From a virus, in IMG/VR virus record IMGVR_UViG_3300022591_000041, positions 1-31,979 of that record: a stretch of DNA of 31,979 bases. One strand, written 5' to 3'. Under the pieces are notes generated by a model. It made no database searches. It was not told the DNA's origin and saw only the letters and a program-made list of their open reading frames with translations. Positions 20,877 to 26,212 of the stretch are shown one piece after another. Both the position numbers and the translations under genes were made by a program. The stretch's first letter is position 1. Each line of letters starts with the position of its first letter.

Positions 20877-21998
20877 CTATGCTCGCCAGATGCTCGCATC
20901 CATCTCATGCGAGATAATTCGCTCGAATTGCTCGCGCGCTTCGCGCCTCTCTTCGTTGGCCGCCTGAGATGCATCAGGAGTCATCGTGATGTCGGCTTGA
21001 CTCGCGCTCGTCACTTGAGCATTGCGGATACGCCGCGTCGCTAATCGATTCGCCTCAGTGAATCGCATAATGCGCGATAGGGGCATCAACTCAACCTTCG
21101 CCGCATCCCAATCAACAACGGCCCCTCGCTTTGCAGGCGCAACAGTCGCATAAACGAATTGGTATTGCTCGCGGCTATATGTCCGGTTTGAATCAGGCCG
21201 AGTTTCATAAATCAGACTTATCAAGACGAACGCGCCATGACGGCCATCGATATAAACCTTGATTGGTAATTCGACTGATTCTTGCGCTCGCGATATCGGC
21301 AGTCGGTAGCCCGTCTTCACCCAGTTGAACCAAACCTTGCGGTATGGCTTACGGCCTCTCAACATCTGGTAGAACGGCGGCCGCTCGCGCGATGCGCATG
21401 ACGAATCATGCTCTTCAAAGTCATGGTCCATATCGCATTGACACTCAGGCGATTCTTCCGACAATCCTGAATAGATTGAGCGTTCGCCCATGAATAAATA
21501 AGTCGTGTCGTCATCTGCGAATCGCGATTGCTCTACGATGATTGCCGCCCATTTATTCAACTGAGACTTGCCCGTGTTGCGCGCAACCTTGCATTCAGAC
21601 TCGTTCATCCATCGGCATTCTGCACACCATGATTCGCTGTTCGCCATTGCTCGGCGCGCTGAGGCATAGTTTGCAAACTCTTTATAGAATGGGAAGAGTT
21701 CAAGCATCTGACTATCGGTGCTGAATGAATCGCGATGCGTTATGCATTCAAGCATCCATGACGCATTATCAATCCCAAACAACGTCCCAGCCTCTTTCAT
21801 CCATCCCTTGAAGAATTGATTGCGCTGAGGCGCTGGTTGCCAGAGCCTAATGATTGAGCCTGTTCGCGGATTCGTTCGAATGCCGACGACGTTGCCGCCA
21901 TGACTGCGGCGCGTCTTACAAATGCGACGATGCTCATAGACATTGGTAATCGCAAAGTCCTGCGCACAGAACTCGCATACTTTCCGTTCCTGCGGCAT
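20877..21998 (-). CDS. Hypothetical protein with N-terminal zinc finger
   Basis: This 373-residue protein is not one I recognise. Residues 8-27 hold C-x2-C-x11-H-x3-C (VCEFCAQDF...HRRIC), a zinc-finger pattern. Further Cys-rich segments follow: SWCAECRWMNESEC near residue 125 and ECQCDMDHDFEEHDSSC near residue 185. The C-terminal ~70 residues are charged and helical. It is the last gene of the amidoligase operon and shares one base with the previous stop (TAATG), so it is probably translationally coupled. A nucleic-acid or protein-binding role is possible. Confidence 0.75.
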   Translation of the reverse strand: MPQERKVCEFCAQDFAITNVYEHRRICKTRRSHGGNVVGIRTNPRTGSIIRLWQPAPQRNQFFKGWMKEAGTLFGIDNASWMLECITHRDSFSTDSQMLELFPFYKEFANYASARRAMANSESWCAECRWMNESECKVARNTGKSQLNKWAAIIVEQSRFADDDTTYLFMGERSIYSGLSEESPECQCDMDHDFEEHDSSCASRERPPFYQMLRGRKPYRKVWFNWVKTGYRLPISRAQESVELPIKVYIDGRHGAFVLISLIYETRPDSNRTYSREQYQFVYATVAPAKRGAVVDWDAAKVELMPLSRIMRFTEANRLATRRIRNAQVTSASQADITMTPDASQAANEERREAREQFERIISHEMDASIWRA

Positions 21999-22336
21999 TA
22001 GAGCATCTCCTGACTCGTTGCGCGCTCAATCAACCATTCAAAGAACTCGGGCGTGAGTTTCTTCTCGGCTGACTCAAGCGATGGGAATGGTGTCTCAAGA
22101 TTGTATGCGCCATTGAATGCGAATACATCTGCGCCATCAACATCAGTCGATAGCGTGAACCACTGAATGATGACATCATCGACAATATCAATGTTGTGAG
22201 TCGCATTGACTGTGATGGTGTAATCATCTGAATCGAATCGCTTGACGACCGTCATATGTTGCAGATTGTCAGAGTCATTCGGATACACCTCTTGAAACAC
22301 TTTCCAACCATCCCACTGCTTCATAAACTGCTTCAT
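21998..22336 (-). CDS. Hypothetical acidic protein, 112 aa
   Basis: The start is directed by GAAAGTAGGGAATC, 57 bases after the predicted cleavage point of the upstream hammerhead ribozyme. The protein is acidic and aromatic-rich (MKQFMKQWDGWKVFQEVYPN at the start, EFFEWLIERATS near the end) with a beta-rich centre (SDDYTITVNATHNIDIVDDV). I recognise no family. Confidence 0.72.
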   Translation of the reverse strand: MKQFMKQWDGWKVFQEVYPNDSDNLQHMTVVKRFDSDDYTITVNATHNIDIVDDVIIQWFTLSTDVDGADVFAFNGAYNLETPFPSLESAEKKLTPEFFEWLIERATSQEML

Positions 22337-22354
22337 GATTCCCTACTTTCATTG

Positions 22355-22414
22355 CGCCTATCTCATCAGTCGGCAAGCGGCGAACCTTGCCAAGACGCCT
22401 CTCGGCGTTTCGAT
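22355..22414 (-). ncRNA. Type II hammerhead ribozyme (copy A)
   Basis: On the minus strand the spacer reads, in order: AUC, then GAAA, stem III ACGCC/GGCGU closed by a GAGA tetraloop, C17 (cleavage site GUC, at 22394), stem I UUGGCAAG/CUUGCCGA (8 bp with one G-U pair) around an 8-base loop, CUGAUGA (22363-22369), then GAU. All invariant hammerhead core bases are present in type II order. Stem II is open-ended and has only 3 bp (GAU/AUC). Loop I contains CGCC, able to pair with GGCG at 22355-22358. Predicted cut lies between 22394 and 22393. Located between the stop at 22424-22426 and the next start at 22336. Confidence 0.85.
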
Positions 22415-22423
22415 TCTTGATGC

Positions 22424-22723
22424 TTAACTCTTGAACGACATCGCCTGCGCTGATGCCCATGCAACGACAACTGCATCCTCATCATTGACGTATGGGATTG
22501 ACTCAATCTCAAGGCGGCGAACGCGCATCGTGCTGACGAGATTGCTGAGCATGTTCTCTTGCATACGCAAGACTTTCTCAGCCAAATCGACAATCTGACT
22601 TTCACTGCTTCGTAATTGAGAGCAGAGCAAACCCTGCTCTTCGATACAGGCGCTGATACCGCGATACTCGCTTACGAGAGTTCGCAATTCATCGCGCCCC
22701 ACTTCATTGATTACTTCTGGCAT
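22424..22723 (-). CDS. Hypothetical coiled-coil protein, 99 aa
   Basis: The gene lies between the two hammerhead ribozymes. Its start at 22723 follows AATGAAAGTAGGGAAGT, 56 bases after the predicted cut in copy B. The product is mostly helical: EVGRDELRTLVSEYRGISAC, then SSESQIVDLAEKVLRMQENM, which fits a coiled coil. The C-terminus has a short strand region (ESIPYVNDEDAVVVAWASAQ). No family recognised. It belongs to the amidoligase operon. Confidence 0.7.
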   Translation of the reverse strand: MPEVINEVGRDELRTLVSEYRGISACIEEQGLLCSQLRSSESQIVDLAEKVLRMQENMLSNLVSTMRVRRLEIESIPYVNDEDAVVVAWASAQAMSFKS

Positions 22724-22741
22724 ACTTCCCTACTTTCATTG

Positions 22742-22800
22742 GGCCTATCTCATCAGTTGCAGGCGGCCATTCACTGCAAGACGCCTCACGGCGTTTCGAT
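22742..22800 (-). ncRNA. Type II hammerhead ribozyme (copy B)
   Basis: The minus strand reads AUC, GAAA, stem III ACGCC/GGCGU with a GUGA tetraloop, C17 (GUC cleavage site, at 22780), stem I UUGCAG/CUGCAA (6 perfect bp) around an 11-base loop, CUGAUGA (22750-22756), GAU. Stem I differs in sequence from copy A yet still pairs, and loop I holds GGCC that can pair with GGCC at 22742-22745. Predicted cut lies between 22780 and 22779. The 5' end of the ribozyme overlaps the last base of the glutamine amidotransferase stop codon. Stem II has 3 bp. Confidence 0.87.
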
Positions 22801-23642
22801 TATCCGCGCCAGCCTTGCCAATCACCCTCGCGCTCAGAATTGAGATACTCCGCCCAGATTGCATCATCATCATCAATATCGGCAAAGAGCGAAGGCGCGC
22901 TATATGAAGGCAACGCATAGCCCGCGCCGCTAGCCGCAAACTCGCTCCAATCATTGATTGCGCCTTGCTCGACTTTGAGATACGTCCCCTCTCCGACTTC
23001 AGCGCGCCACGTCAAGGCAAGATTCGACTTTGCCGCCGCGCGATTCAACATATTCATCTGAGAGCAGAACACGAACTGCCCAGTCTTTGATTGAGCAATT
23101 GCCAGAGGCGATGACTTGACTCGCGCTAAGCGCAACGTCTCAGGCGACTCCAAATCAATCCAAGCAAGCGCCGCGCCGCCAATCAAGCGAGGCAGAGCCT
23201 CACAGATTGAATCAGCATCAGAGCCAACCGACTCGATAAGAGCGAAGGCCGCCTCTGAATCAACCTGCCCGATGCGCTTGACGCCGACTTCATTGAAGAG
23301 CGCATCATCATTTGAGATATGCCCATTATGAACGCCGATGATACGAGGCCGAATGATGGGATGATTATTCGCATCAATCGAAGGAGAGCCTTGCGTTGCA
23401 TAGCGAGTATGCAAGATGCAGATGCGAACATCAGGCGACATCAGCGACTTCAACTCTTTCACGAATCCCCATGCTGAGCCTGCGCGCTTGTAATAATACA
23501 CCTCGCCATCTGACGGGTCGACCCACGATGCGCCAGTAGCATCCTTGCCGCGCGCGACAATCTCCAACAACAACTCTGATGCCAAGACTCGCGCATCAAT
23601 CTTTGCTCCGCCTGTTAAGCAGAATCCTGCGATACCACACAT
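22800..23642 (-). CDS. Class II glutamine amidotransferase
   Basis: The 280-residue enzyme releases ammonia from glutamine. It opens with MCGIAGF, so Cys2 becomes the N-terminal nucleophile after Met removal. Other landmarks are RGKDATG (31-37), HTRYATQG (78-85), NNHP (92-95), GVHNGHISN (103-111) and VDSEAAFALI. It lacks any synthetase domain, so ammonia is presumably passed to a partner, most likely the amidoligase encoded just upstream in the same operon. The start follows AAGGAAGGAATC. The last ~40 residues are acidic (DIDDDDAIWAEYLN). Pairing of these two families in phage and bacterial gene clusters has been described, so the link is a reasoned inference. Confidence 0.88.
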   Translation of the reverse strand: MCGIAGFCLTGGAKIDARVLASELLLEIVARGKDATGASWVDPSDGEVYYYKRAGSAWGFVKELKSLMSPDVRICILHTRYATQGSPSIDANNHPIIRPRIIGVHNGHISNDDALFNEVGVKRIGQVDSEAAFALIESVGSDADSICEALPRLIGGAALAWIDLESPETLRLARVKSSPLAIAQSKTGQFVFCSQMNMLNRAAAKSNLALTWRAEVGEGTYLKVEQGAINDWSEFAASGAGYALPSYSAPSLFADIDDDDAIWAEYLNSEREGDWQGWRG

Positions 23643-23671: not shown

Positions 23672-24772
23672 CTAGTTCAATTCCAAAACGCGCTCTGAGA
23701 AAAAGTCAACCAACTCAGATGGTGCGCCTGACAATTCGACAATCTTGGCAAGCGTATTCTCAACCTTGCGCTGACGGTAGCCAGCGGCTGAGCCATCGAA
23801 TGCGCCAGCGCGGCCTTCAATCGTGAATCCCTCTGAATTGCGCGCAATGGTAGGCACGAACTGCAACTTGTCTTCCTTTGCCAACTTCATGCAAGCCATG
23901 AGCAACAAGCCCCACTTCTGCATCTTCTCGCGGTTGAGCGTTCCTTGGTGCTGACGGAACTCAAGCGTCGTGTGGCGATTCATTGACTGCGTGTTGATGG
24001 TGCGGTAGCGCCAGTTGTCGTTATTAGGAACGACGCGACGCTCAAGCATCGGCATCTCTTCATCCAATTGGCGCTGAGTCCAACCCGACAAGAGCGAATT
24101 GATGCGACGGCTAGGCGAAGTCAGCGCGTCAAAGAATCCCTGATTGGCGACATAGAACTTAACCATGCGAACGAGCGCGGCGGCGGGCATGTCATCAGTG
24201 CCGAGATGAATGTGAGTGCCGCATGAGAGGCGAATCTGAGCGCCTGCATCCTTGAGCGCCTTCATCGCAATCTCAACTTCATCCCAACCCTCATCGCCAT
24301 ACAAGACTGGCGAGACTGCTTCCATGCCACATGATGCATCGCGAACGACCTTCCACCAAGTCGTGCGACGGTGCGTGTATCCTTCATCGCGAACTTGCAA
24401 GCCTGCATTCTCAAGCGCCGCCAACATCGCGTCGGCTGAAAGATTCTCAGTCTCAAGTTCGACGCCGAATGAGCGACGAGTCCAATCATCAAGCGTCGTC
24501 AGATTCTCAACGAACGCGCTAGACGATGCGCCAGTCGCGCCATTGCGGATTGATGCCATCGATGATGCGAACGCCCATATCGCTGAGTAATCGTTGGCGG
24601 CAACTCCGAGTGAGCGCGCGCGCGACAGAGCCGCACGAGCCGACTGGCCATGCGCCCAACCGCATACGCGCGCCGCTTGGTCGTAGGTGTAACCATTCTG
24701 AATCATCCACAAGCCGTGTGCCATGCGGCGCTCTGATTGATTACTGATTCGTGTTCCGTTCAGGTAAGGCAT
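23672..24772 (-). CDS. Amidoligase (glutamine synthetase-like COOH-NH2 ligase)
   Basis: Taken from ATG 24772 (after GAAAGTGGGAATCAA) the product has 366 residues; longer in-frame starts lie in the leader and -10 region. Residues ~10-60 look like a helix-turn-helix (GYTYDQAARVCGWAHGQSAR). The catalytic part follows: FGVELETE (Glu105/Glu107), GMEAVSPVL (Glu151), CGTHIHLG (His187/His189) and TTLEFRQHQGTL (Glu271/Arg273), which are the signature motifs of the putative amidoligase family. These enzymes are predicted to form amide or peptide bonds on unusual substrates using ATP. The promoter at 24841-24870 lies just upstream. An N-terminal HTH fused to an amidoligase is unusual. Confidence 0.87.
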   Translation of the reverse strand: MPYLNGTRISNQSERRMAHGLWMIQNGYTYDQAARVCGWAHGQSARAALSRARSLGVAANDYSAIWAFASSMASIRNGATGASSSAFVENLTTLDDWTRRSFGVELETENLSADAMLAALENAGLQVRDEGYTHRRTTWWKVVRDASCGMEAVSPVLYGDEGWDEVEIAMKALKDAGAQIRLSCGTHIHLGTDDMPAAALVRMVKFYVANQGFFDALTSPSRRINSLLSGWTQRQLDEEMPMLERRVVPNNDNWRYRTINTQSMNRHTTLEFRQHQGTLNREKMQKWGLLLMACMKLAKEDKLQFVPTIARNSEGFTIEGRAGAFDGSAAGYRQRKVENTLAKIVELSGAPSELVDFFSERVLELN

Positions 24773-24800
24773 TTGATTCCCACTTTCATTCATCGGCGCT

Positions 24801-24832
24801 AGCGACTTGCTCGCGCCTTGAGCGACTTGCTC
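24801..24832. repeat. Tandem 12-bp repeat in the amidoligase leader
   Basis: AGCGACTTGCTC occurs at 24801-24812 and 24821-24832, a spacing of 20 bases. Both copies lie between the -10 box and the start codon, so they are in the transcribed leader or overlap a repressor site. Role unknown. Confidence 0.75.
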
Positions 24833-24840
24833 ATGCATCA

Positions 24841-24870
24841 ATGATAGGCACGATTCGAGACAAATTGCAA
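24841..24870 (-). promoter_or_regulatory. Minus-strand promoter of the amidoligase operon
   Basis: On the minus strand TTGCAA (24870-24865) and TATCAT (24846-24841) are separated by 18 bases. A near-identical element lies at 27985-28014, including the upstream bases GTTTCAGATTGTTGCAA and the CGTGCCTA before the -10 box, which supports a real phage promoter. Confidence 0.7.
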
Positions 24871-24994: not shown

Positions 24995-25522
24995 ATGATT
25001 GAAGTCGGCGACATTATCTTTGCGCACACCAATGGCATTATCGGCAAGGCGATTCGCTTTGCAGAGTGGTGGCATCATCCAACGCGCATGGGCAGTCAAT
25101 GGAATCATGTTGCAATAGTCACTCGCATTGACGACCACCGCATCTTCATAACTCAAGCGCAACCGCATGGCGTAACAAACGATATGGCGCTTGATGAACT
25201 AATTGATGTCAATGACAAGATGCTTGTGTATCGGCCGCCTGCGCATTTGAATCATGATGCGATGCTTGAGTTCGCATTTGGCGAAGTCGGCAGTCATTAT
25301 GGCTTCCTTTCAATCGCATCAGTTGCGACTGACATCATTACGCCGACTTGGGCGCCGGCTATTCGGACTCCTGATTCATGGATATGTTCGGCGTTGGCGG
25401 CTGAGTATCTGCGCGTTGGCGGCTGGGTCCATCGCTGGCCTGATATTTACGGCGTGATGCCCGCGCAACTTGAGTTGGCGCTACATGCTGACCTTGACTT
25501 TGAGATTGTGGCTCAGTTGTAA
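24995..25522 (+). CDS. YiiX/NlpC-P60-like papain-fold hydrolase
   Basis: The 175-residue protein is a lone plus-strand gene inside the minus block. It begins VGDIIFAHTNGIIGKAI, continues QWNHVAIVTRI with His38, and later has DSWICSALAAEYL with Cys131. His before Cys in the chain is the order of permuted papain-like enzymes (YaeF/YiiX type) and fits an amidase or peptidase acting on lipid or peptide amides. No signal peptide is seen. Its last 164 bases overlap the end of the antisense Ntn hydrolase gene. Role unknown: a second wall enzyme or a host-protein modifier are options. Confidence 0.78.
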   Translation: MIEVGDIIFAHTNGIIGKAIRFAEWWHHPTRMGSQWNHVAIVTRIDDHRIFITQAQPHGVTNDMALDELIDVNDKMLVYRPPAHLNHDAMLEFAFGEVGSHYGFLSIASVATDIITPTWAPAIRTPDSWICSALAAEYLRVGGWVHRWPDIYGVMPAQLELALHADLDFEIVAQL

Positions 25523-26030
25523 GTATCTTGAATGGCGGCATGACATCGCCTCGATGCATTGCGGCCGCCTCAAGTGCTGACTTCACGATGACCGAATCAT
25601 CTGGGCGATTCGATTGGCTGAGCATTGCATGACAAGCGCCAAGAGCAATGTTTGCGCCTGTCCCTGATGCGGCGTATGCGCCGATTCGCTTTAGTGTCGC
25701 ATATCGAAGGACTGCCCAATCTGAATTGACTTCATAAATTGAGCCGCCGACGCCAATAAGAATCTGCCACGACATCTCATCGCATTCTTCGCTCTTCATT
25801 GCGGCGCGCAAGGCATCGCGGAACTCAAAGGCGGATTCAGTTCGCTTAAGAGATTGGGCAATCAATCCGACGCGCCACGAGCCTGAGAATCCTGCAATCA
25901 TGTTGCGATTGATTCGCCAGACTTTTGTATCCGCCGCAATAAATCGAGTCGGCTCTTCCTCATCTTGCATGGCTGAATCGCCGCCCATGATGACGCGCCC
26001 TTTGCTCGCAATCGCGACGATGCAAGTCAT
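25359..26030 (-). CDS. Proteasome-like Ntn hydrolase
   Basis: The 223-residue protein starts at 26030, overlapping the previous stop by 4 bases (ATGA). After Met removal it begins with Thr: TCIVAIASKGRVIMGGDSAM. The proteasome catalytic set is visible: Thr1, Asp17 in GGDSA, and a lysine at 35 (proteasome Lys33). The fold pattern RFIAADTKVWRINRNMIAGF, then GSWRVGLIAQ, matches beta-subunit/HslV-like proteins. The C-terminal ~55 residues (QSQSQGQ, then a basic and Pro-rich stretch) are low complexity and lie antisense to the YiiX-like gene, so the core probably ends near residue 170. Substrate unknown. Confidence 0.78.
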   Translation of the reverse strand: MTCIVAIASKGRVIMGGDSAMQDEEEPTRFIAADTKVWRINRNMIAGFSGSWRVGLIAQSLKRTESAFEFRDALRAAMKSEECDEMSWQILIGVGGSIYEVNSDWAVLRYATLKRIGAYAASGTGANIALGACHAMLSQSNRPDDSVIVKSALEAAAMHRGDVMPPFKILTTEPQSQSQGQHVAPTQVARASRRKYQASDGPSRQRADTQPPTPNISMNQESE

Positions 26031-26212
26031 CTGATGCGCACCACGACTTCGCAAGGGTCGCCGCCGCGCGCCCACTCCGCTTCCATCTCTTTAGTCGGGA
26101 ATCCGATGTCGTGCTGATAACACCATGACGGTGTGCAGAATCCGAGGCGAATGCCTCGCTCAAGCCACTCGCGTTGCTCTAGCCTGTCGATTGGTAATTT
26201 GCTGTCGCTCAT
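26027..26212 (-). CDS. Small conserved-type actinophage protein, 61 aa
   Basis: The start follows GAAAGGAAGAATG. The product contains REWLERGIRLGFCTPSWC, YQHDIGFPTKEMEAEW and GGDPCEVVVRI, a layout that recurs in small actinophage proteins: two Cys, a His-Asp pair, an acidic Trp-containing segment and a Gly-Asp-Pro-Cys end. It may bind metal. Function unknown. It is just downstream of the hairpin at 26235-26268 and overlaps the Ntn hydrolase start, so these two probably form a unit. Confidence 0.75.
   Translation of the reverse strand: MSDSKLPIDRLEQREWLERGIRLGFCTPSWCYQHDIGFPTKEMEAEWARGGDPCEVVVRIR

Follow-up and report, generated by a model that had tools for sequence, protein, structure and literature searches.

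Two pseudoknotted type II hammerhead ribozymes, referred to as A and B, lie between the genes of a minus-strand operon in the DNA of an uncultured phage (IMG/VR record IMGVR_UViG_3300022591_000041, whose whole stretch of 31,979 nucleotides is called the window), and they probably cut the operon transcript co-transcriptionally into three mRNAs, where cleavage, end chemistry and stability are predicted. That the sequence of ribozyme A is a type II hammerhead and not a chance match is confirmed by an Rfam E-value of 4.4e-7, an independent covariance model and a reversed-sequence control. The window ribozymes belong to a known kind of element, since pseudoknotted type II hammerheads (loop I paired to the tail), and clusters of hammerheads that flank prophage genes, were described by Perreault et al. 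in 2011, who proposed that transcripts are thereby cut to gene length (PMC3088659). Going further than that description are arrays of 10–13 copies in other phages and an upstream stop codon that begins exactly 5 nt before GAAA (position -5) in 96 of 243 ribozymes.

Ribozyme A (22740–22803, minus strand) reads ...GGAUAAUC GAAA CGCC GUGA GGCG UC UUGCAG UGAAUGGCCGC CUGCAA CUGAUGA GAU A GGCC CAAUGAAAGUAGGGAAGU AUG, with GAAA at 22797–22794 and CUGAUGA at 22756–22750. Stem III is formed by A22794–C22790 and G22785–U22781 and is capped by GUGA, stem I by UUGCAG (22779–22774) and CUGCAA (22762–22757), and stem II comprises only 3 bp (22800–22798 with 22749–22747). The GGCC of loop I (22765–22768) pairs with the GGCC of the tail (22742–22745) in a 4-bp pseudoknot that is backed by covariation in the family. 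Cleavage is predicted at the H17 position of the core, between C22780 and U22779, from where it is 56 nt to the next start codon, the ATG at 22723. The UAA stop (22802–22800) of the upstream amidotransferase gene overlaps the 5' strand of stem II (22800–22798), with A22800 being common to both. The core elements with their coordinates, the cut 3' of C22780, the 56-nt distance, and the overlap with the stop codon had been put forward in an earlier, sequence-only reading and are borne out, as is the placement of a type II hammerhead between two genes, which are co-directional. Right for ribozyme A, that reading was, however, incomplete, in that both the loop I–tail pseudoknot and a second hammerhead at 22417–22353 had been missed.

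This second hammerhead, ribozyme B (22353–22417, minus strand), was first met by the core pattern as a complete motif at 22411–22363. Its stems III, I and II have 5, 8 and 3 bp, the CGCC of loop I (22379–22382) pairs with the GGCG of the tail (22355–22358), and cleavage is predicted, again from the H17 position, between C22394 and U22393. In both copies the hammerhead core of CUGANGA, GAAA and a UH site after stem III is intact, stems I and III are closed by loops with stem II open, as is the layout of type II, and loop I and tail are joined by 4 Watson-Crick pairs each; furthermore, both have the same orientation and flank genes of one operon, as do clustered hammerheads. Stem I differs between the copies by compensatory changes (UUGCAG/CUGCAA in A vs. 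UUGGCAAG/CUUGCCGA in B), and so does the pseudoknot (GGCC/GGCC vs. CGCC/GGCG), with stem III differing solely in its loop (GUGA, GAGA). Both copies precede GAAAGUAGGGAA followed by AUG, so that the duplicated unit seems to be the ribozyme together with the ribosome-binding site; the leaders of the genes after A (22724–22741) and B (22337–22354) have GAAAGTAGGGAA in common. Upstream of B, the stop codon is found 15 nt before GAAA, i.e., without the overlap with stem II seen in copy A. No third copy is present in the window, according to a search including types I and III, three circular permutations and, for type II, also a single mismatch in CUGANGA; the cassette of the window was not found in other viral records.

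At its gathering score, Rfam reports nothing in the window. In its E-value mode, ribozyme A is matched best by Hammerhead_II, with 34.2 bits (E 4.4e-7 over the record), which is below the curated cut-off of 37 bits for RF02276, a database convention rather than a defining feature of the ribozyme, and B is unreported even at E 10. By the covariance half of the refutation proposed along with the sequence-only reading, taken literally, ribozyme A thus falls short of the Rfam threshold; the question is settled by a purpose-built model, R1, derived from an alignment of 40 phage relatives with none from the window, which finds A at E 2e-16, B at E 2.2e-13 and no other match in the window. In addition, a structural scanner yielded 321 matches in real sequence vs. 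0 in reversed sequence. The Rfam cut-off is, thus, shown to miss probable members of the hammerhead family.

A scan of IMG/VR with the core pattern led to 86 stretches, most of them with a hammerhead and the same loop I–tail pseudoknot, and after two further scans the clean set comprised 273 distinct ribozymes from 178 loci, of which 46 hold at least two. In the alignment of 40 relatives, with the structure including the pseudoknot, 96.9% of the pair cells are paired, and 217 double changes are seen vs. 56 in shuffles, a count reached in none of 500 shuffles; 17 of the 21 pairs show double changes, and sliding the partners by one column lowers pairing to 32–37%. The pairing of stems I and III is in part by construction, because the scan required at least 5 bp in each of them (and at least 2 bp in stem II). 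The pseudoknot was optional in the scan and is nevertheless 94% paired in the alignment; across the set, at least four Watson-Crick pairs are possible in 245 of 273 relatives vs. 64 of 273 with shuffled tails. This pairing is the tertiary contact of the pseudoknotted type II family. The stem III hairpin is usually short and GC-rich, with GNRA loops in 58 and UNCG loops in 80 of the 273 ribozymes; both window copies have GNRA loops. In one record (L200, G024), copies occur whose stem III (CGCC UUCG GGCG) is identical and whose sequences of stem I and the pseudoknot are quite different. A further candidate property, selection for mutually exclusive pseudoknots within arrays, is not claimed, with cross-pairing (at least four Watson-Crick pairs) at 24% within genomes being just slightly lower than the 31% between them, a comparison that is biased by the finding pattern.

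Thermodynamic folding gives a z-score of -0.2 and a minimum-energy fold that is not a hammerhead, which is weak evidence given that the programs cannot model the pseudoknot. If the pseudoknot is left out of the calculation, the hammerhead fold exceeds the minimum by 4.8 kcal/mol for A and 3.5 kcal/mol for B. Such a gap is normal for the family, in which the hammerhead is the minimum-energy fold in just 7 of 273 relatives, although both window copies exceed the family median of 2.7 kcal/mol.

The window copies share with RF02276 Hammerhead_II (PMC3088659) the core, the element order GAAA–stem III hairpin–site–stem I hairpin–CUGAUGA, the short open stem II, the pseudoknot immediately 3' of stem II and the phage setting, but differ in being below the Rfam cut-off or missed by it and in having a stem III of just 5 bp and a pseudoknot of 4 bp. 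As in the prophage clusters of Clostridium scindens, Azorhizobium caulinodans and Agrobacterium tumefaciens, ribozymes of the same orientation flank single genes; however, the arrays assayed there were small, such as the triple in A. tumefaciens, compared with 6 to 13 copies in the relatives described here (PMC3088659). The HHphage hammerhead of the haloviruses HF1 and HF2 is likewise part of a polycistronic phage transcript and directly precedes a gene in it, and a transcript 5' end was mapped near the cleavage site; HHphage is, however, a single copy with a core variant, residing before a helicase gene of an archaeal virus (PMC3088659).

In the proposed course of events, each hammerhead would fold while RNA polymerase passes and would cut the minus-strand operon RNA between the genes, after C22780 and after C22394. 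The upstream product would be the mRNA of the amidoligase gene (23672–24841, minus strand; PF12224, E 2.3e-25) and the class II glutamine amidotransferase gene (22800–23642, minus strand; PF13522, E 1.6e-15; phrog_14519). Since A and B bracket a 99-aa gene (22424–22723, minus strand), a 386-nt monocistronic RNA carrying this gene only would be released, and the third product would be the mRNA of a 112-aa gene (21998–22336, minus strand) and whatever follows. The sequence-only reading had let a single cut separate the enzyme pair from the downstream genes; with paired ribozymes, the 99-aa gene would instead be excised alone. The 99-aa protein has no match in Pfam or PHROG, and by the method used no IMG/VR relatives were found for it, the 112-aa protein or the amidoligase; being orphans, the 99-aa and 112-aa reading frames are putative genes only. 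Each upstream piece would keep its stop codon and, just beyond it, terminate with the stem III hairpin and a 2',3'-cyclic phosphate, and each downstream piece would start with a 5'-OH and the stem I hairpin and have its ribosome-binding site intact. An RNA with a 5'-OH is resistant to decay initiated at a 5'-monophosphate, and 3' exonucleases are slowed by a hairpin at the 3' end. The predicted ends would, thus, be poor substrates for decay that depends on an unpaired 3' end or on a 5'-monophosphate, and the ribozymes would thereby stand in for terminators and separate promoters; near them, promoter- and terminator-like matches show no excess over chance in the window.

Cleavage in such arrays is supported by published work on others, of which arrays of up to three were seen to cut in vitro and, in E. 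coli, one of three did so; four of the 18 hammerheads assayed were inactive, and in one ribozyme cleavage became about 20-fold slower upon shortening of the pseudoknot from 6 to 4 bp (PMC3088659). The pseudoknots of the window, at 4 bp, are at the short end of the range, which may mean slow cleavage. The purpose of phage hammerheads has been called open since 2011, and a 2017 review lists the roles of prokaryotic hammerheads as an open question (PMC6155905). The layout found in relatives, where a stop codon in stem II is followed by the ribozyme, the ribosome-binding site and the start codon, and which recurs from gene to gene in some phages, is in keeping with the making of single-gene mRNAs.

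Applied to 48 whole viral records, model R1 finds 13 copies in a 77-kb record, 10 within 3.4 kb of a 66-kb record and six each in three more; in the phages with 10–13 copies, many of these occupy successive gene gaps. In the best arrays there is approximately one ORF of matching length per ribozyme interval, e.g., intervals of 161, 180, 214 and 840 nt for ORFs of 49, 56, 69 and 276 aa. In the 77-kb record (L199, G021:C1:56000-73000), all 13 hammerheads are of the pseudoknotted type II and eight of the 13 upstream stops are exactly at -5; the 10 hammerheads of L198 (G005:C1:41000-48500) lie within 3.4 kb, with one small ORF in most intervals. On contig NZ_BMHQ01000020.1 of Marinithermofilum abyssi (L328, 7058–7900), seven hammerheads follow each other approximately 120–145 nt apart; such spacing appears to leave too little room for ordinary genes, and the array may differ in kind. 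A further viral record (L139/G034) has two hammerheads, which differ from those of the window in sequence and position.

The upstream stop was located for those 243 ribozymes whose preceding ORF, called mechanically, is 60 aa or longer. Besides the 96 cases at -5, in which the last base of the stop lies inside stem II, 32 of the 243 have it at -6; a caveat to these statistics is that the 3' side of stem II was to some extent preset by the search patterns. With one ribozyme per upstream protein cluster, 38% of 215 are still at -5, and common descent, therefore, does not explain the pattern. The stops at -5 are UAG in 74 and UAA in 22 cases. Where the stop lies elsewhere, A is kept at -4 in 78% and a purine at -3 in 93%, but U at -5 in only 33%; hence, the ribozyme itself appears to demand the A and the purine, with the U completing the stop codon. 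On the downstream side, the start codon follows the core at a median of 27 nt, and 195 of 211 cases have a Shine-Dalgarno-like site. Taken together, the stop and start positions in relatives indicate that the ribozyme fills the gap between the stop codon and the ribosome-binding site. In the window, the stop of ribozyme A conforms to the -5 pattern and that of ribozyme B does not. Neither the stop-codon overlap nor arrays of 10–13 copies were found reported in the literature searched, which was covered in part, with most subscription journals outside; in the main text of PMC3088659, the overlap has 0 occurrences.

The sequence-only reading had proposed that ribosomes finishing the amidotransferase could control folding. 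It is conceivable, if doubtful, that cleavage is gated by translation: a terminating ribosome would cover GAAA and stem III, the cut would occur only if the upstream gene is unread or has just been read, and the ribozyme would act as a sensor of translation. The frequency of stops at -5 and -6, its persistence after protein clustering, and a U that marks the stop and not the structure favour such gating, yet genome compaction combined with the purines needed by stem II would yield an equal overlap, between which sequence alone cannot separate, and copy B has its stop 15 nt upstream. With the same reserve, we suggest that the hammerhead could, in many phages, make up one composite element together with the preceding stop, in which UAR serves as the stop with A and R in or beside stem II, termination gates cleavage, and arrays of up to 13 would produce separately ended and separately timed single-gene mRNAs. 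In any case, this layout offers a concrete way to ask whether translation termination controls the cut.

Other explanations bear less weight than intergenic processing of the operon RNA. That the two ribozymes are decayed, inactive copies carried along by a duplicated cassette of ribozyme and ribosome-binding site would agree with the common leader GAAAGTAGGGAA and with Rfam scores under the cut-off, but it is improbable in view of the invariant core bases, which are all kept, and of stem I and the pseudoknot, which changed in compensating pairs, where neutral decay would break pairs. Still less likely is excision in the manner of retrozymes, where the 386-nt RNA would be ligated into a circle by RtcB or the reverse reaction of the ribozyme. 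Two ribozymes of the same type and orientation do bracket one segment, and the expected ends, a 5'-OH and a 2',3'-cyclic phosphate, would be suited to RtcB. Retrozymes also have paired hammerheads bracketing a short RNA, but these are of types I or III, belong to eukaryotic retroelements and give rise to circular RNA, of which there is no sign in the window (PMC7761336); moreover, array spacing tracks gene length with no fixed unit, no RNA ligase or RtcB is found among the window proteins searched, and the circular or spliced products sought in 2011 were not detected (PMC3088659). Protein-coding conservation, finally, has next to no probability: ORFs of 69 and 61 aa do run through copies A (22745–22954) and B (22275–22460), but their frames differ from those of the larger genes that they overlap, the differences between the copies track RNA pairing and not codons, and the covariation in relatives disfavours this reading.

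As to the genes around the ribozymes, the idea that the hammerhead is tied to the amidotransferase gene was rejected, since a structural scan of 80 loci that surround relatives of this gene found 0 hammerheads; the ribozyme is, hence, not linked to it. An amidoligase and a class II glutamine amidotransferase occur as a pair in this phage (22800–24841, minus strand), which we take to be possibly involved in surface or nucleotide modification. The head protein and portal of the window have distant matches only, in phages of Arthrobacter, Brevundimonas and Alicyclobacillus, among others. A weak match to a proteasome subunit (Ntn-hydrolase), just under the Pfam cut-off (E 1.7e-4), is located at 25359–26075 on the minus strand.
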